Shown piece by piece: positions 10,957 to 28,029 of a stretch of 35,925 nt of DNA. The stretch is taken from positions 1-35,925 of the IMG/VR virus record IMGVR_UViG_3300037264_002509; one strand, given 5' to 3'. The translations under genes and the position numbers were made by a program. The DNA comes from a virus. The notes under the pieces were generated by a model, which made no database searches, was not told the DNA's origin, and saw only the letters and a list, made by a program, of their open reading frames with translations. Position 1 is the first letter of the stretch. Every line of letters starts with the position of its first letter.

Positions 10957-12852
10957 GTGGGCTTCTTCGCGGACGTAGCCAACAAGATCCGAACTGCCTT
11001 CTCGAAAGACAAGGAACAGCTCGCTGTCCAGTTTGCGAAAGGTTCGACCGCGTCGGGTATGCCGACGACGGGGTACGACCTGCTTCAAGCCTACGGCTAC
11101 GATGTCATCTCCGATTACTTGCGTCTAGAGCACGACCTCCTCAGTCGCTACGTGGACTACGAGGAGATGGACGACTACCCGGAGATTGCCGCAGCCATCG
11201 ACATCTTCGCAGACGACGCTACGCAACTGGAGACCCAGCTCAACCGAACCCTCTGGGTGACCTCTCCGGACAAGGACATCGAGAAGAATCTCGACTACCT
11301 CTTCCAGAAGACTCTTCGCATCGACGAGGAGATCTGGGAGATCGCCCGCACGCTCGTGAAGTACGGTAACGACTTCGAGGAGCTGTTGGTCACGAATGAG
11401 GGGGTTCGGGGTTTCAACTTCCTGCCTCCTCCGACAGTTCGGCGCATCGAAGGCCCGCGTGGCGAGTTGTATGGCTTCGTTCAGGACTTCAAGGGCCGCT
11501 TCGGCTACTCGCCTGCGGAGTTCCAGCAGGTGCTCGCGACGCGCGCTGCGATGCGGCAAGGGGCGCCGGATTCGGGAAGCGGAGGTTTGGAGAAGGTAGC
11601 GGCTCTGGAGGACTGGGAGGTCGTCCACTTCCGTCTCCGTGGCAAGCACCGCCGGTCCATCTACGGCTACTCTGTTCTCGAATCAGCTCGGTGGATTTGG
11701 AAGCGCCTCATGCTTCTGGAGGATGCTGCGCTCATCTACCGGCTTCAGCGTGCCCCCGAGCGTTACGCCTTCTACGTGGATGTGGGTGATCTACCTCCGC
11801 AAGAAGCGCTCGCGTGGACCAACCGGGTTCGCCAGCAGTTCAAGAAGAAGAAGTACATCAACCCGACGACGGGCAAGCTGGATCTCAAGTTCGAGCCCCT
11901 GGCGCAGGACGAGGATTTCTTCATCCCGGTTCGCAAGGGAACCGAGGGTACACGTATCGAGGTGCTGGGCTCGCCGAGCTGGCAGCACATGGACGACATC
12001 GAATACTTCCGCGACAAGCTGTTCGCGGCGATGAAGATCCCGAAGGCGTATCTCGCCCAAGACGAGAGTACGGCGCGTTCGGTGCTCTCCTCCGAAGACG
12101 TACGGTTTGCCCGCACTGTGCTGCGCGTGCAACGTGAGATTCGGAACGGGCTCTCGAAGGTGTGTCGTGTCCACCTAGCGGCGCTCGGTATCGACCCAGC
12201 GACGGTCGAGTACGACCTCCACATGACGACTCCGTCGGCTATCTTTGAGCTGGCGCAGCTAGAAGTGCGGAATGCACGAGCCGACTTGGCGGGGCGCATG
12301 CGGGAGTTCGTTTCGCTTCAGTGGCTTCTCTCCAAGGTCTTCGGTCTCAACGACGACGAAATCTCGGTTCTCATCCAGCAGCGGGAGGAGGACAAAGTTC
12401 GAGACTTCGTGGGTGAGGCGCGAGCGCAGGCCGCTGCGACGGAGGAGTTCCCACAGTTTCAGCCGGGGGCGCCTCCTGGGGCTTTCGCTCCCCAACCGGG
12501 AGGGGGTTTTCCTGGTGAGCCGGGTATGCCTGGAGAGCCTGGAGAGCCTGGAGCGCCTGGAGCGCCTGGGGAGCCCGAACCGGACGCGGAGCCCGGCGAG
12601 GGGAAGGGGAGGACGAGTAACCTCTACTCTTCGCACTTCTCCCGATCTCGATCCCGCTTGATCAACCGGAACCGCGGTGGTATCTCTGAAAGAGAGCGGT
12701 TGCCAGCGAACCGCGATGCCGAGAAGCGAGCCGAGGAAAAATTGGATCGTCTTCTCAAAAATGATCGTTCGCTGGCGATGCGGTTGAGTGAGTTGGGGCA
12801 CCTGCTCAACGACATGCGTTCCATGAGTAAGCGGTCGTTCGGTGGAAAGTGA
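10957..12852 (+). CDS. Portal protein (T4 gp20-like) with collagen-like segment
   Basis: A 631-residue portal. The GTG start has GGGAGG upstream (10944-10949). T4-type portal features include EEMDDYPEIAAAIDIFADDAT, GYSVLESARWIWKRLMLLEDA, the QRAPERYAFYVDVG region, KKKKYINPTTGKLDLKFEPL, and EYFRDKLFAAMKIPKAYLAQDE. The portal forms the dodecameric ring at one capsid vertex for DNA entry and neck attachment. Unusually, residues about 504-552 are a Gly/Pro/Glu-rich stretch with consecutive G-x-P or G-E-P triplets (positions 12510-12580), resembling collagen repeats, before a helical C-terminus. At DNA level this is a run of related 9-base units beginning cctgg. This probably forms an exposed flexible arm rather than a true triple helix. 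Confidence 0.92.
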   Translation: MGFFADVANKIRTAFSKDKEQLAVQFAKGSTASGMPTTGYDLLQAYGYDVISDYLRLEHDLLSRYVDYEEMDDYPEIAAAIDIFADDATQLETQLNRTLWVTSPDKDIEKNLDYLFQKTLRIDEEIWEIARTLVKYGNDFEELLVTNEGVRGFNFLPPPTVRRIEGPRGELYGFVQDFKGRFGYSPAEFQQVLATRAAMRQGAPDSGSGGLEKVAALEDWEVVHFRLRGKHRRSIYGYSVLESARWIWKRLMLLEDAALIYRLQRAPERYAFYVDVGDLPPQEALAWTNRVRQQFKKKKYINPTTGKLDLKFEPLAQDEDFFIPVRKGTEGTRIEVLGSPSWQHMDDIEYFRDKLFAAMKIPKAYLAQDESTARSVLSSEDVRFARTVLRVQREIRNGLSKVCRVHLAALGIDPATVEYDLHMTTPSAIFELAQLEVRNARADLAGRMREFVSLQWLLSKVFGLNDDEISVLIQQREEDKVRDFVGEARAQAAATEEFPQFQPGAPPGAFAPQPGGGFPGEPGMPGEPGEPGAPGAPGEPEPDAEPGEGKGRTSNLYSSHFSRSRSRLINRNRGGISERERLPANRDAEKRAEEKLDRLLKNDRSLAMRLSELGHLLNDMRSMSKRSFGGK

Positions 12853-12895: not shown

Positions 12896-12905
12896 CCCAG
12901 TGACG

Positions 12906-13832
12906 ATGCAACTGATCTCGAACCGCTACATTCCGACCGAAGAGGTTCGACGCCTCACGATCGGGAGCTACGAGCACTTGATTGCTCGTATCGACGAAGC
13001 GGTTCGGTCGGACGCAGCTCGGCTTTTTGGAGCGAAGATCGAAGCCCACGTGGTGGGGACGTTTTCGGGGTACGCGATCGTTCTTGCGGAAGACGGTCGC
13101 TTCCTACGCATCAAGTACGATGAGGTGAAGGGCTCTGTTCGGGTGGTCGGCCACGAGATGTTGAAGGTGGCCTCGTACAGTCCGGACGAGCTGGGCAGTT
13201 ACCTCAAGAGCGAGTCCCAGCGGGCGGTCGATAGCCTCCTTCGTGGCAATGTGGAAGAGGCTCTTTCCCGTTTGAAGGGCTTGACCCGCTTCGTCGAGCG
13301 GCGGCCGACCCACGATGAACCTCAGATCGTGGAGGCTATGGCGACGTTCTACCGATCCGACCGCCTCTGGAGGCGGGTCTTTCAGGAGAAGGCCGACCAC
13401 ATTCGGCGAATGGTGCTTGACGAGATCACCGCGATCCACGAGGATCGGTTGCAAGTCAAGTTCCGTTCGCTATATGATGGATCGGTAAGTGCGACGGATC
13501 TCGAAAGCTACCGTGAACTCGTGATCGAGAATCTGAATCAGATCGGAGAGCGTACCGACAACTTGCTTCGGCAGGTGACGGATGCTGCACGCGAAGCGAA
13601 AGGTAGGAAGGACGGCGAGGCTGTCGTCACTTCTCTCTTTGCTTTTGCTGACGATCTGGTAGAGGATCTCCGCTCAGTGAAGAAGACGGCCTCGGAGTCA
13701 ACTCGGCAACTGACGCGAGTGGACTGTCTTGGGAAGTTCCACGACACGCTGGCCGAAGGCTTTCGAGACCGTGAACTGGCTAGCCGTTTCGTGATCAAGA
13801 TGTCCAAGCGCCTCGGCGAGGCCAACCCCTAG
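12906..13832 (+). CDS. Hypothetical head-cluster protein, 308 aa
   Basis: I prefer ATG 12906 over the in-frame GTG 12900 because the expected transcription start lies between them. The protein is soluble and largely helical, with a short mixed segment near residues 45-75 (GTFSGYAIVLAEDGRFLRIKYDE). I do not recognise a family. It sits between portal and prohead core genes, where T4 has small core genes 67 and 68, so a head assembly role is likely. It begins with its own promoter and is followed directly by the next gene; its TAG overlaps an unused GTG. Confidence 0.75.
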   Translation: MQLISNRYIPTEEVRRLTIGSYEHLIARIDEAVRSDAARLFGAKIEAHVVGTFSGYAIVLAEDGRFLRIKYDEVKGSVRVVGHEMLKVASYSPDELGSYLKSESQRAVDSLLRGNVEEALSRLKGLTRFVERRPTHDEPQIVEAMATFYRSDRLWRRVFQEKADHIRRMVLDEITAIHEDRLQVKFRSLYDGSVSATDLESYRELVIENLNQIGERTDNLLRQVTDAAREAKGRKDGEAVVTSLFAFADDLVEDLRSVKKTASESTRQLTRVDCLGKFHDTLAEGFRDRELASRFVIKMSKRLGEANP

Positions 13833-13846
13833 TGGAGGATGCGGCA

Positions 13847-14719
13847 ATGCTGCGACACCCGGTTGTGTTGACGACCATCGAGGAAGACTTCAAGCGGATC
13901 GGTCTCCTCGACGAGGCGAACGACGAGAAGTCCCAGGACGAGATGGACGACAAGGAGAAGCACGCCAAGAAGGCGGCGGCTGCCAAGTCGGCTCCTGAAG
14001 AGAAGAAGGAGGGGGAGGAGGATCTCGACGAGGTCCGCTCTTCCCGCCTGAAGCGTCACACGTCGGGCGAGCGCCTGAAGTGGCGGCGCGCAAAGAAGAA
14101 GGGCAAGGCCAAGGCGGCGGGTCGCAAGTACCGGAAGAAGTCCACCGTCAAGAGGATGCTGAAGAGGCACCGCCTCCGTGCGAAGAAGCTGCGTCACGGC
14201 AAGGCGGCAGGTCGTCGGCGCCTGACGTTCGGGAACGACACGATCTCCAACATGCTCGAAGAGGTGCAGGAGATCGTCTCGGGCATCGATACGGAGCGCG
14301 TCGAGCACACCGTCAAGGCGTTCGCGAATGTCGCGATCATCGCTGAGATGCTCTCTCGCGCCTTCGCGAAGTTCGAGGCCGAGGCCGAAGGCGAGGACAA
14401 GGACACGCTCGCCGAAGCGGCCAAGTTCTTCTCGGAGATGGCCGAAGAGGCTTCCGAGATCGCCAAGGGGCTCAATGAGGGTCCGGGCGAGGACGAGGAG
14501 TTCGACCTCGAAGAGATCGGCGAGGTCTTCAAGGGCCACATGTCGGATCTCCTCAATGGGCTCGACATGTACGCCGACATCACCGAGGATGATGACCTCG
14601 GAGAGACCGTCAAGGGTGCGTCCGAAGACGGGCACGACGCCGAGGACGACGACGAGGACGAGGGGGACGACGAGAAGAAGTCCCCTTTCGGGAAGAGCAA
14701 GAAGGAGACGAAGAAGTAA
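13847..14719 (+). CDS. Highly charged prohead core-like protein, 290 aa
   Basis: ATG 13847 is chosen because GGAGG (13834-13838) lies eight bases upstream; the GTG at 13832 overlaps the previous stop. The N-terminal 45 residues are acidic/lysine-rich, residues about 65-125 are very basic (KKKGKAKAAGRKYRKK and more Arg/Lys), the middle is helical, and the C-terminal 40 residues are acidic (DDDEDEGDDE). This resembles internal or core proteins that are packaged with DNA or removed by the prohead protease; the family is not recognised. A perfect -1 slippery heptamer C-CCT-TTC lies in frame at 14683-14689, ten codons before the stop. Confidence 0.75.
   Translation: MLRHPVVLTTIEEDFKRIGLLDEANDEKSQDEMDDKEKHAKKAAAAKSAPEEKKEGEEDLDEVRSSRLKRHTSGERLKWRRAKKKGKAKAAGRKYRKKSTVKRMLKRHRLRAKKLRHGKAAGRRRLTFGNDTISNMLEEVQEIVSGIDTERVEHTVKAFANVAIIAEMLSRAFAKFEAEAEGEDKDTLAEAAKFFSEMAEEASEIAKGLNEGPGEDEEFDLEEIGEVFKGHMSDLLNGLDMYADITEDDDLGETVKGASEDGHDAEDDDEDEGDDEKKSPFGKSKKETKK
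14683..14689 (+). promoter_or_regulatory. Candidate -1 frameshift site
   Basis: CCCTTTC fits the X-XXY-YYZ pattern exactly in the frame of the upstream gene (codons TCC CCT TTC). A slip of one base back leads into the open frame ending at 14886. A hairpin with a ten-pair stem and one bulge lies at 14730-14754, but 40 bases downstream, further than the usual 5-9. Confidence 0.4.
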
Positions 14720-14886
14720 CGGAGGCGTGGCGGTATCGCCGGACGGCGTACCGCAGCGGTCGGCTGGAGCTGGTCGGGTTCGGCGGAAACCCGTTCAAGC
14801 GCAAGACGAGGAAGGTCAAGAAGGAATTCCAGTCGTCTACGAAGTACACGCCCTTCCGAGGGCAGTTCCGCTGGCGAAGATACTGA
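14689..14886 (+). CDS. Basic 3' reading frame without a start codon, probable frameshift extension
   Basis: This frame is open from TGA TGA near 14590 to TGA 14886 and contains no ATG, GTG or TTG at all. From about 14720 its third codon positions are overwhelmingly G or C, as in neighbouring genes, and the peptide is strongly basic and aromatic (contains NPFKRKTRKVKKEF and ends FRGQFRWRRY). The other two frames there do not look coding. It would be reached by a -1 slip at 14683-14689, giving a fusion of about 346 residues, or by non-standard initiation, for example CTG 14764 (40 residues). In T4-like phages a small gene 68 lies at the matching place before the protease; homology cannot be judged. 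Start coordinate given is the first -1-frame codon after the slip. Confidence 0.5.
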   Translation, partial: REEQEGDEEVTEAWRYRRTAYRSGRLELVGFGGNPFKRKTRKVKKEFQSSTKYTPFRGQFRWRRY

Positions 14887-14901: not shown

Positions 14902-16470
14902 ATGCAGACCACGGGCGCAAAGAAAGCGATGATGCTGGTCGATACCAGACTGATTCGCTTGGACCTCGTCGAGAAGAACGACGGCGGTAAGGTCTGCGTT
15001 CGCGGTGAATTCGCGCGGGCGGGCGAGGCGACTGAGAACAAGCGCGTCTACCCCAAGAAGGTGTGGGAGCGCGAGATCGGCCGTCTCGACAAGCCGATGA
15101 AGGAACGCCGGGTCTTCGGTGAGATCGACCACCCGCTCGATGGGCGCACCAGTCTCAGCCGCGTGTCTCACATCGTTACAGAGATGCGTCTGGAGGACGG
15201 AGTGCTCGTCGGCGAGGCCGAGATCCTTCCGACGGACAAGGGGAAGAACCTGATGGCGCTGCTGAAGTCCGGCTGCAAGGTCGGAGTCAGCTCGCGCGGG
15301 TACGGTTCGACCAAGGCCAACGACAAGGGCGAGGAGGTGGTCCAGGAGGATTACCGTCTCGTCACTTTCGACTTCGTGGCGGATCCGGCCGACCAGACCG
15401 CCTACCCCGAGGTCTTCTTCGAGGGAGTGGAGATCGCACCCATGCTCACCAAGGCACAGGAGAATCAGAAGGCGAAGGAGTGGGCGGACCGCATCCAGGC
15501 GGCGGCGAAGGCCGAGGAAGCGGCCCACGAAGCGGGTGAAGCAGGTGAAGCGGGCGAAGCGGACAAGAGCAAGCTCGCGGACGACCTGCTCACGCGCCTC
15601 GCGGAGCTGCGCGCCGAGGTTCGCGAGGAAGTTCGGGGCGAGCTGCTCTCCGATCCGTCGGTGGCAGGCGCTCGCACCGCTCTCGATCAGATCAAGGACA
15701 TCCTCCGTCCCTTCGTTCTTCCCGAGGACGCCGAGTCCGTCGTGAAGTCCAAGGAGACCGAGATCGCTCGTCTTCGGAAGGAGTGCGCCGAACGGGACCT
15801 CAAGATCAAGGATCTGGAGACCGAGAACGGCAAGCTCGCCGAGGCCGCCAAGGAGGCGGGCTACAAGCTCTACCTCGAACGGCAGCTCGCCGGAGATCCC
15901 GATGGGGACCTCATCAAGCGGGTCGTCGGGGACGTGACGAAGTTCGAGAACGCCACCGAGCTGAAGGCCAAGCTGGCAGGCGTTCGCGAGGAGCTGTCGA
16001 AGAAGCGCGAGACGGACAAGAAGGTCGAAGAGACCAAGGTCCGCGAGGTGTCGCGCGCTCGGACTCTGGCGCGCGAAGCGACGGAGAAGGCCGAGGAGAA
16101 GGTCGAGGCGCTGTCTGAGGCGGTCGAGAAGCTGACCGCCGTGAACAAGGCGATCTCCCTCCGGCTCTACGTGGAAAAGAAGTTGCAGAGCAATCCAAGA
16201 TCTGCGAAGATCCGTTCACTGATCGAATCCGCGAAACCGGACTCGAAGGAAGAGGTGGACGAGATCTTCGAGAACTTCTCTCCTGCGCCCCCGAAGGATG
16301 ACGACGAGGCTGCGCTGGTTCGCTCTCGGATCCGCTCGCTCACACGCGGTGGCTCTGAAGGGAACCCGATCGACGAAGAAACACCACGTCGGTCGAAGAT
16401 GGAAGAAGACTACAACGGTCTCGGTGTTGATCTCGGAGAGCTGAAGCGGCTCTCCGGCGTGAGAAAGTAA
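14902..16470 (+). CDS. Prohead protease (gp21-like) fused to scaffold-like coiled coil
   Basis: A 522-residue protein. Residues 1-175 are a T4 gp21-type (U9/S77) serine protease: GEIDHP (H77), VGVSSRGYGS (S130 or S131) and FDFVADPAD (Asp at 157 or 161). The rest is charged and predicted coiled coil, with an EAGEAGEAGEA repeat and heptad-rich stretches to about residue 430, like a scaffold protein (T4 gp22). T4 encodes these as two genes; here they are one. The scaffold would guide capsid assembly and then be cut up by the protease, which also processes the capsid protein. AGGGAG (14891-14896) lies before the ATG. Confidence 0.88.
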   Translation: MQTTGAKKAMMLVDTRLIRLDLVEKNDGGKVCVRGEFARAGEATENKRVYPKKVWEREIGRLDKPMKERRVFGEIDHPLDGRTSLSRVSHIVTEMRLEDGVLVGEAEILPTDKGKNLMALLKSGCKVGVSSRGYGSTKANDKGEEVVQEDYRLVTFDFVADPADQTAYPEVFFEGVEIAPMLTKAQENQKAKEWADRIQAAAKAEEAAHEAGEAGEAGEADKSKLADDLLTRLAELRAEVREEVRGELLSDPSVAGARTALDQIKDILRPFVLPEDAESVVKSKETEIARLRKECAERDLKIKDLETENGKLAEAAKEAGYKLYLERQLAGDPDGDLIKRVVGDVTKFENATELKAKLAGVREELSKKRETDKKVEETKVREVSRARTLAREATEKAEEKVEALSEAVEKLTAVNKAISLRLYVEKKLQSNPRSAKIRSLIESAKPDSKEEVDEIFENFSPAPPKDDDEAALVRSRIRSLTRGGSEGNPIDEETPRRSKMEEDYNGLGVDLGELKRLSGVRK

Positions 16471-16532: not shown

Positions 16533-18032
16533 ATGGGCGCCGAAGCTCGCCAGATGATCCAAGAAGCTCGCCGTGGTTCGATCGCTGATCAGAGCTACGT
16601 CGGTGGCCTGATTCGCAAGTGGCGTGACTTGCTCGAAGGGATGCCGGATCGGTCCGAACACGAGCGGTTCGTTCTGGGCGTCACTGCGATGCTCATGGAG
16701 AACCAGTCGCTCTACCTCCAGAACTTGAACGAGGAAACGAGGACGATCAACGTCGGCTCGTTCACCAAGTTCATCTTCCCGGTACTGCGGCGGGTCTTCC
16801 CGAACCTCATCGCGAACGAGATCGTCTCGGTCCAGCCGATGACAGCGCCAGTCGGCGCGGTCTTCTTCCTGGACTACATCTACGGGACGAGCAAGGGCGC
16901 GACGACCCAGGGCAACATCTTCCCGCGCGACTTCGACCGCGACTACTCCTCGGAGTATGTCAACGGCGAGCCGGTCGCGATCGGAGACGGCGCGCAGTAC
17001 GGCGGCGTCGGCACGGCTCTCACTGCGGTGATGAGCTTCCAGCCGGTTCGTCCGAAGGACACGACGCGGGGCTTCCAGCTCATCCTGCGCGAGATCAACG
17101 CGGCGACGGGCGCGACTGTCCAGGAAGCACTGGACGACGGAACCGGCGGCTTCACCGGGGCCGTGGCGGCGGGCTCCATCAACTACTCCAACGGCGCGCT
17201 GACGGCCTTCAAGTTCACGGTGATCCCGGTCGCGGGCAACCCCATCAAGGCGTACTACTACTACGATGGGGAGCTTTCCTCCAAGGTCCCGCAGGTCCAG
17301 CTCGACGTGAAGAAGGCTCCCGTCGAGGCCCAGCCGCGGCGCCTGAAGGCGCTCTGGTCGAGCGAGGCGGCGGAAGACCTCCGTGCGTTCCACGGGCTCG
17401 ATGCTGAGACGGAGATCGTCTCGATCGTCGCGCAGGAGATCGCGCTGGAGATCGATCGCGAGATCATCAACGACCTCTTCCTCGCTTCGACGGGGACCAC
17501 GGGCACGTTCGACCGCGTTCCTCCGGCGGGCATCGCCGAGGTGGACCACCTGCGGAGCATCATCACGACGCTCTCGACGGTGTCGAACCTGATCCACAAG
17601 AAGACCCTCCGCGCGCCCGCCAACTGGATCGTCACCTCGCCCGAGGTCTCGGCTCTGTTGGCGCAGCTCACGACCCACGGGGACTTCCGGCCGATCTACG
17701 TGTCGGGCGGCGAGAGCCCCTACGGCCCGGCGGACATGCCGCGCCCGATCACGCAGCATGGGCAGTTCGGCATCTACAAGGTCGGCACGCTCATGAACAA
17801 GTGGCTCGTGTACGAGGACCCGTTCTTCACCCGCGACAAGATGCTGATCGGCCTCAAGGGCGGCAGCTACCTGGACGCCGGGTACGTGTGGGCTCCGTAC
17901 ATCCCGCTCCAGGTCACGCCGACCTTCCTGGACCCGAACGACTTCTCGTTCCGCAAGGGCCTCCGTACCCGCTACGCGAAGAAGCTCCTCCGCAGCGAGT
18001 TCTACGGCCAGGTCACGGTCCAGAACCTCTAG
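16533..18032 (+). CDS. Major capsid protein (T4 gp23-like)
   Basis: A 499-residue capsid protein with gp23-type sequence: LRRVFPNLIANEIVSVQPM, APVGAVFFLDYIYG and NWIVTSPEVSALL. GGAGG precedes the ATG. The first 36 residues contain two matches to the gp21-type cleavage rule (hydrophobic-x-Glu before a small residue): IQE-A at 9-12 and LLE-G at 33-36, suggesting removal of the N-terminal peptide during maturation. Residues about 194-245 hold a beta-rich module (DDGTGGFTG, then SINYSNGALT, then KAYYYYD) that also appears in the tail sheath protein and probably decorates the capsid surface. It is followed by a strong terminator. Confidence 0.93.
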   Translation: MGAEARQMIQEARRGSIADQSYVGGLIRKWRDLLEGMPDRSEHERFVLGVTAMLMENQSLYLQNLNEETRTINVGSFTKFIFPVLRRVFPNLIANEIVSVQPMTAPVGAVFFLDYIYGTSKGATTQGNIFPRDFDRDYSSEYVNGEPVAIGDGAQYGGVGTALTAVMSFQPVRPKDTTRGFQLILREINAATGATVQEALDDGTGGFTGAVAAGSINYSNGALTAFKFTVIPVAGNPIKAYYYYDGELSSKVPQVQLDVKKAPVEAQPRRLKALWSSEAAEDLRAFHGLDAETEIVSIVAQEIALEIDREIINDLFLASTGTTGTFDRVPPAGIAEVDHLRSIITTLSTVSNLIHKKTLRAPANWIVTSPEVSALLAQLTTHGDFRPIYVSGGESPYGPADMPRPITQHGQFGIYKVGTLMNKWLVYEDPFFTRDKMLIGLKGGSYLDAGYVWAPYIPLQVTPTFLDPNDFSFRKGLRTRYAKKLLRSEFYGQVTVQNL

Positions 18033-26533: not shown

Positions 26534-27088
26534 ATGGCCCGCGCACAAAGAACCGACTTCATTCACTCGATGCGCTTCCACGTCGATGCCATTGGCGTCG
26601 GTGGAGTCGCTCGTCTGGTCGTTCCTGGCAGCCCACAGGCGGGCTTTTCGGCGGTGACGACGCCTGAGGCCACGGTCGAGGCGGTGGAGTACAAGGAAGG
26701 CAACACCGTCTACACCAAGAAGTACCCCGGCAACCCGACGATGTCGGACATCACGCTCTCGCGCGGTGTCACGCGCGGGGACAGCTCCTTCTGGGAGTGG
26801 TTGCGGGTGGTCCTGGAAGGTTCGGGCGAGTACCGAGCCGACCTCGACATCAAGCACTTCCACCGCGACGCGGCGCTCGTGCGCACGCAACCGGCCTCGG
26901 GAGATCAGCCCAACCTCACGAACATCGGTACCGACACGCCGGGACGCATCTACCACGTGCGCGAAGCGTTCCCCATCCGGCACAAGGTGGCGGCCGACAT
27001 GGACGCGACCGCGTCCGAGATCTCCATCATGGAGATGGACCTCGCCTACGAGCACTTCGAGGTCGAGGAGCGGCCCGTTCCGGCGTAA
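26534..27088 (+). CDS. Tail tube protein (gp19-like)
   Basis: A 184-residue protein with the contractile-tail tube pattern: FHVDAIGVGGVARLVV, GFSAVTTPEATVEAVEYKEG, the strand with KKYPGNPTMSDITLSRGVT, SSFWEWLRVV, and a C-terminal FPIRHKVAADMDATASEISIMEMDLAYEHFE. Tube proteins stack as hexameric rings inside the sheath and guide DNA. It starts directly after the preceding stop (TAGATG). A terminator follows at 27115. Confidence 0.88.
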   Translation: MARAQRTDFIHSMRFHVDAIGVGGVARLVVPGSPQAGFSAVTTPEATVEAVEYKEGNTVYTKKYPGNPTMSDITLSRGVTRGDSSFWEWLRVVLEGSGEYRADLDIKHFHRDAALVRTQPASGDQPNLTNIGTDTPGRIYHVREAFPIRHKVAADMDATASEISIMEMDLAYEHFEVEERPVPA

Positions 27089-27327: not shown

Positions 27328-28029
27328 GTGGCGCGTCCTGTTCTCCAAGACTACCTCCAGGCGTACCCGTTCTGGCTCATGGACGTAGCGCCTGTTGAAG
27401 CCTTCGCGCTTCCGATTTTCACGCCGCTCTCCGGCTTCGCCTCTATCGTGGCCCCCGAGATCACAGTAGAGACGCAGGAGATCAAAGAAGGGAACTGGCA
27501 CTTCAAGCGTACGGCGATCAAGAGCGCCGACGTTTCTCCGATCACGCTCACGAGGGGCGTGACCTTCGCGAACTCCGACTTCTGGCGTTGGATCGTTGCA
27601 GGCATTGTGGGAAGTACGGAGTGGCAGCTCAAGCTACCGTACGTGCCTCCGTCTCGCATAGGCGGTCCTTCACCGAGACGGCAGCTTGTGCTCATCCACT
27701 ACTTCTCGCGCAGCCCCTTCGGTACGATCGGGCAAGCGGCGGCTTTCGTCTTCAATAGCTTGGTGGAGGCGGCGGTCGGCGGAAATACTTTCTCAGCGGT
27801 CGGCACCGTCGCTGGACAGACGGCGGGTGCTGCGTTGGCTGGAGGTTTGGTGGGAGGGGGGCCGATAGATGTTGTTGCCCGTATACCCGCACGAGCGTAC
27901 GTGCTTCATGGCTGCCTACCGACGCGCTACAAGGTAGGCAGCGACTTCGACGCGAGATCCGGTGAGGTTTCGATCGCCGAACTGGATATCAAACCCGAGC
28001 TTGTCGAAGAGATCAGCCTGACATCCTGA
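27328..28029 (+). CDS. Second gp19-type tail tube paralogue with glycine-rich insertion
   Basis: GTG start with GGAAGGG six bases before it. The 233-residue product shares the tube pattern with the previous gene (EITVETQEIKEGNWHFKR, then ITLTRGVTFANSDFWRWI, and a C-terminal TRYKVGSDFDARSGEVSIAELDI). A stretch of about 50 residues (130-180) rich in Gly, Ala and hydrophobic residues is inserted before the last strands. In T4, gp54 and gp19 are related proteins where one starts tube growth at the baseplate; this protein may be such an initiator or a minor tube protein. Separate expression from the main tube is likely because a terminator lies between them. Confidence 0.75.
   Translation: MARPVLQDYLQAYPFWLMDVAPVEAFALPIFTPLSGFASIVAPEITVETQEIKEGNWHFKRTAIKSADVSPITLTRGVTFANSDFWRWIVAGIVGSTEWQLKLPYVPPSRIGGPSPRRQLVLIHYFSRSPFGTIGQAAAFVFNSLVEAAVGGNTFSAVGTVAGQTAGAALAGGLVGGGPIDVVARIPARAYVLHGCLPTRYKVGSDFDARSGEVSIAELDIKPELVEEISLTS

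Follow-up and report, generated by a model that had tools for sequence, protein, structure and literature searches.

Probable programmed -1 frameshifting at the end of a putative prohead core gene in uncultured phages with T4-type heads

How could a phage translate a conserved reading frame that has no start codon? This question is raised by the head gene cluster of an IMG/VR virus record, all 35,925 bases of which (the window) were read 5' to 3'. The cluster is of the T4 type, in the order portal, a 310-aa gene, the gene of interest, protease and capsid. A frame in the -1 register overlaps the 3' end of the gene of interest (the upstream gene) and extends toward the protease gene. The features of this region are as follows.

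10957-12852, plus strand: T4-type portal protein (Portal_T4, gp20), from PHROG/Pfam matches
12900-13832: 310-aa gene between the portal gene and the gene of interest
13847-14719, plus strand: upstream zero-frame gene, putative prohead core protein of 290 aa, between the T4-type portal and the prohead protease
14683-14689, plus strand: slippery heptamer C CCT TTC, in frame with the upstream gene; the same heptamer occurs in relatives
14689-14886, plus strand: -1 frame extension, 65 aa and TGA, predicted to be read after a slip to give a 346-aa product
14717-14719, plus strand: zero-frame stop codon TAA of the upstream gene
14722-14883, plus strand: conserved extension peptide EAWRYRRTAYRSGRLELVGF...TPFRGQFRWRRY
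14730-14754, plus strand: ten-pair hairpin of doubtful role, 40 nt after the heptamer
14902-16470, plus strand: prohead protease (Peptidase_S77), from PHROG/Pfam matches, with a long C-terminal region that is possibly scaffold
16533-18032, plus strand: major capsid protein (Gp23), from PHROG/Pfam matches

The upstream gene starts at ATG 13847, with GGAGG eight bases 5' of the ATG; an alternative start at GTG 13832 would give 295 aa. Its product has a conserved N-terminus (VVLTTLEEDFxxIGL), basic helices, a helical bundle and an acidic disordered tail. The corresponding open reading frames of relatives are largely homologous, with the N-terminus TTLEEDFxxIGL and a helical middle in common, and most of them finish in an acidic stretch. 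AlphaFold2 predicts helices, with the highest confidence at residues ~150-250 and low confidence at the acidic end. T4 gp67 likewise has an acidic tail. Like the T4 genes for gp67 and gp68, the gene lies in the stretch from portal to protease, although the window has the extra gene at 12900-13832 in between. The earlier note's assignment to a prohead core protein fits this position but finds no sequence match: hhalign of the upstream protein against gp67 and gp68 gave no meaningful alignment, in what is a weak test with one T4 sequence each. No convincing relative was found among PHROGs and Pfam, a viral fold search returned no match at E 0.001 or better, and the matches among solved structures were designed coiled coils only. 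A DNA match to PaBG was set aside because it falls on acidic repeat codons. The label of prohead core protein, drawn from position and composition, is therefore putative. An [LIM]x[EQ] motif, a loose pattern taken here with no background rate, occurs within the first 20 residues in 61 of 71 upstream proteins, and would fit cleavage of the T4 type by a gp21-type protease. Separately, the TTLEEDFxxIGL start (window 13847-13910) loosely resembles the N-terminal capsid-targeting/cleavage peptides of T4 internal proteins.

The -1 frame contains no ATG, GTG or TTG, as the earlier note had said; its limits of 14590-14886 need a small correction, since 14590-14595 are two stop codons and the frame is open from 14596 to 14886. 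To collect relatives of the encoded peptide (the tail), we began with a tblastn pattern search of viral contigs, which gave 31, and the set was enlarged by loci found via the capsid protein and divergent tails. With a profile, the tail was recognised in 157 of 171 sequences, representing 79 distinct plus-strand forms, and the phages that carry it are uncultured and have T4-like head genes. The strongly basic coding peptide that had been proposed is indeed conserved across these forms: its consensus, EAWRxRRTAYRSGRLEL..KRKxRK..TPFRxxFRWR, is basic and aromatic, and its core has the fixed order EAWRxRRTAYRSGRLELxG, basic stretch, TPFRxxFRWR. Between the window and its relative L002, the tail has a dN of 0.10 and a dS of 1.14, and in a second clade differences are likewise concentrated at third positions of the tail frame. 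From these patterns, which reflect selection at the protein level, we conclude that the tail frame is translated by one means or another.

The tail resembles nothing we could identify elsewhere. AlphaFold2 predicts one short helix (residues 13-19) and otherwise coil, with a mean pLDDT of 72. PHROGs and Pfam held no convincing relative, and no solved structure matched. A PHROG match for the window tail (E 0.021) was rejected as weak and absent from the other 20 members. Searching 50,697 phage records by tblastn with tails and upstream proteins gave no matches, GTDB genomes gave 13 tail pattern matches of which none was confirmed, and the tail profile found nothing above noise in eight public phage regions (one uncultured huge phage, LIS04, SP-15, RAS14, immuto, P-SSM4, GXN1 and T4).

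We then asked how the two frames are related across the lineage, a comparison of heptamer and frame that the earlier note had itself recommended. Relative to a long upstream ORF, the tail is in the -1 frame in 73 of the 79 forms. Of the remaining six, L101 is +1, and the other five, L010 and L070 among these, are short or unclear. For counting, the tails were grouped at 80% identity into 51 clusters. No standard start is present in the tail frame in 34 of these, and 17 have neither a standard nor a near-cognate start. These counts bear on a different explanation, in which the tail is a separate small gene with a non-standard start, coupled to termination of the upstream gene. Some clusters do have an in-frame CTG, ATT, ATC or ATA; L010 and L070 carry the tail as a gene with its own ATG; and, among loci lacking a heptamer, L164 has an ATG and L031 has GTG/TTG codons. 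However, no codon at a fixed place is common to the relatives, the 17 clusters with no standard or near-cognate start speak against it, and the heptamers, the near-constant -1 register and the stems described below would be left unexplained. We consider a separate gene quite unlikely. The specific start that had been offered as an alternative for the window, CTG 14764, is very unlikely, since the conserved block begins upstream of it, at 14722.

The overlap itself holds the expected signal. In the window, C CCT TTC stands at 14683-14689, where the earlier note had placed it, in the frame of the upstream gene and nine sense codons before its stop, and it is the sole X XXY YYZ site in the overlap. 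Taken alone, the window gives a modest P when its codons are shuffled: such a heptamer arises with a probability of ~0.014 within the last 36 nt and ~0.044 anywhere in the overlap. Among relatives, heptamers were counted as X XXY YYZ with YYY being AAA or TTT, in register, inside the overlap and no more than 36 nt from the upstream stop, and the null was generated by shuffling the last 120 codons. Heptamers were found in 31 of the 51 clusters, against an expectation of 0.37 (sd 0.61). G GGA AAC predominates and typically lies 6 or 9 nt ahead of the stop, but G GGA AAA, C CCT TTC and A AAA AAN (A-runs) are also used. The window's C CCT TTC is shared with close relatives, standing in register in L002, L021, L106, L111, L117, L120, L133 and L134, and L061 carries CCCTTTG. 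A heptamer is still present in overlaps as short as 13-19 nt, and in nine clusters a heptamer coexists with a possible start. Slippage of the RNA polymerase rather than the ribosome could make the same fusion, and a few relatives (L004, L119, L107) do contain runs of seven A or T. Most sites, though, are GGGAAAC, GGGAAAA or CCCTTTC rather than homopolymer runs, and their two-codon register and stem spacing are typical of ribosomal sites, which makes transcriptional slippage the least probable of the alternatives, by our estimate very improbable.

Two relatives, of one lineage, provide a natural control. In L010 (4938-5174) and L070 (4098-4337), the tail is a separate gene that begins MSNELQ.LIDEAR. 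Here the upstream gene terminates in frame with the tail, and therefore a -1 shift could not join the two. Where L002 reads ATG CCC CCT TTC, these loci read ATG CCC GAC TTC or ATG CCT GCC TTC. Judging from these sequences, the heptamer is gone where it would not be needed. Thus normal start codons do occur in relatives, a finding that the earlier note had set against its own reading, but these loci have lost both the -1 register and an intact heptamer.

Eight of the 51 clusters (L003, L014, L019, L074, L082, L084, L091 and L110) lack a heptamer as well as a standard start. They count against frameshifting, though in five of the eight a C CCT motif survives, as C CCT A[CT]C in L014, L074 and L110 and as C CCT TCT in L084 and L091. 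At these C CCT sites, slippage might involve the P-site tRNA alone. The site in L082 is GGGGGGC, and the upstream gene of L019 ends GAA AAG TAG. Separately, C CCT A[CT]C at the ends of upstream genes is also conserved in L079 and L121, where the full heptamer is missing; L121 has C CCT ACC plus an ATG. L003 (4869-5177) carries a conserved -1 frame tail with no start codon and no in-register heptamer. In L101 (4105-4323), the tail is +1 to an upstream ORF that reads GCG CCC TTT CGG near its end, which could mean a +1 shift at CCC T or, alternatively, an indel in this contig.

RNA downstream of the heptamers was also examined. The 66 nt beginning 5 nt past the heptamer gave a mean fold z of -1.95 over 58 sites, which are not independent of one another, compared with -0.34, -0.46, -0.20, +0.10 and -0.73 at five control offsets. 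The first pair of the stem is mostly 5-9 nt past the heptamer, the spacing that has been commonly studied (PMC5009743). In the best-sampled clade, a 21-pair stem begins 8 nt past the heptamer and shows compensatory changes at 6 pairs; in two further clades the stems are nearly constant, and their few changes carry little information on covariation. The window departs from this pattern. Its nearest strong hairpin, at 14730-14754, is real and, as the earlier note had described, lies 40 nt downstream, outside the 5-9 nt range; a stem at the usual spacing is absent, and the 81-nt fold of the hairpin region has a z of -1.4. A conventional stimulatory role for this hairpin is improbable. Its position, starting ~10 nt past the stop codon but well away from the heptamer, could instead suggest that frameshifting is real in the lineage but that the window slips elsewhere, for example on AAG TAA by the hairpin, with C CCT TTC incidental. 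Given that C CCT TTC is the only candidate heptamer in the overlap, is common to L002, L021 and others, and is broken in L010 and L070, we regard a slip elsewhere as unlikely.

Overall, the near-constant -1 register, the scarcity of start codons, the protein-level selection on the tail, the excess of heptamers, the stems predicted at canonical spacing in many relatives and the loss of the heptamer where the tail has its own ATG make it highly likely, as far as comparison of sequences can tell, that programmed -1 frameshifting produces a long form of the upstream protein, which is the reading that the earlier note had put forward. Most ribosomes on 13847-14719 would terminate at TAA 14717 and release the 290-aa core protein. 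A fraction, we infer, would shift into the -1 frame at C CCT TTC, bypass the stop and add 65 residues, with SPF-REEQEGDEEVTEAWR as the peptide across the predicted junction. The computed fusion is 346 aa, matching the length that had been estimated, and would end in the basic, aromatic tail. Since the tail is short, basic and aromatic and is predicted to lack a fold of its own, it would suit a binding motif. We tentatively suggest that a minority of the core-protein copies are anchored by it inside the prohead, to the shell or portal, in which case the slip rate would determine how much of the core protein is anchored relative to the plain form.

Several known systems offer comparisons. Phage tail chaperones and some major capsid genes are familiar cases of frameshifting. 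In phage lambda, a -1 frameshift gives rise to the tail assembly chaperones gpG and gpGT (PMC5009743), and related chaperones are made likewise. As predicted here, a short and a long form result from slippage close to the 3' end of a morphogenesis gene, and several of the present relatives use the same heptamer class, G GGA AAN. The gene described here, in contrast, belongs to the head genes, between those for portal and protease, and no chaperone family was among the PHROG/Pfam matches of the upstream protein or tail. Capsid frameshifts are known for T7 gp10A/10B, T3, Lactobacillus phage A2 and Listeria phage PSA (PMC5009743). These too give a head gene a minor, C-terminally extended form, but the protein is the major capsid protein rather than a putative core protein with a short basic tail. 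In the alpha-carboxysome, frameshifting decides whether the scaffold CsoS2A/CsoS2B carries its C-terminal piece (PMC12918739, PMC5009743). The likeness, a scaffold made with and without a C-terminal piece, is one of working principle only: CsoS2 is an unrelated protein of an organelle, and its short form is about half of the product.

T4 has no frameshift annotated in its gp67/gp68 region, and our searches of the open-access literature found no report of frameshifting in phage core or scaffold genes, those of T4-type heads included. Within that literature, a frameshift in a T4-type prohead core gene is provisionally new. If it is confirmed, current annotations of this lineage omit a conserved protein segment. 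The organisation of the T4-type scaffold is described as unresolved in a review of the T4 head (PMC9958956), and a core protein in two forms would be a handle on it. The varied natural heptamers, stems and replacements by start codons would form a comparative set for the evolution of frameshift sites. Taken furthest, a view to which we give somewhat less than even weight, a large uncultured lineage with T4-type heads may control head assembly through a frameshift in its prohead core gene: the slip rate would fix the share of copies with a shell- or portal-binding tail, as a viral counterpart of CsoS2, using several heptamers and, in some branches, an ordinary start codon.

Two observations concern other parts of the window. 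A 1183-aa ORF at 28050-31601 matches the ribonucleotide reductase large subunit from residue 463 only, its first 460 residues having no PHROG match. The adjacent ORFs at 26534-27088 and 27328-28029 both match one tail tube family (phrog_4542).
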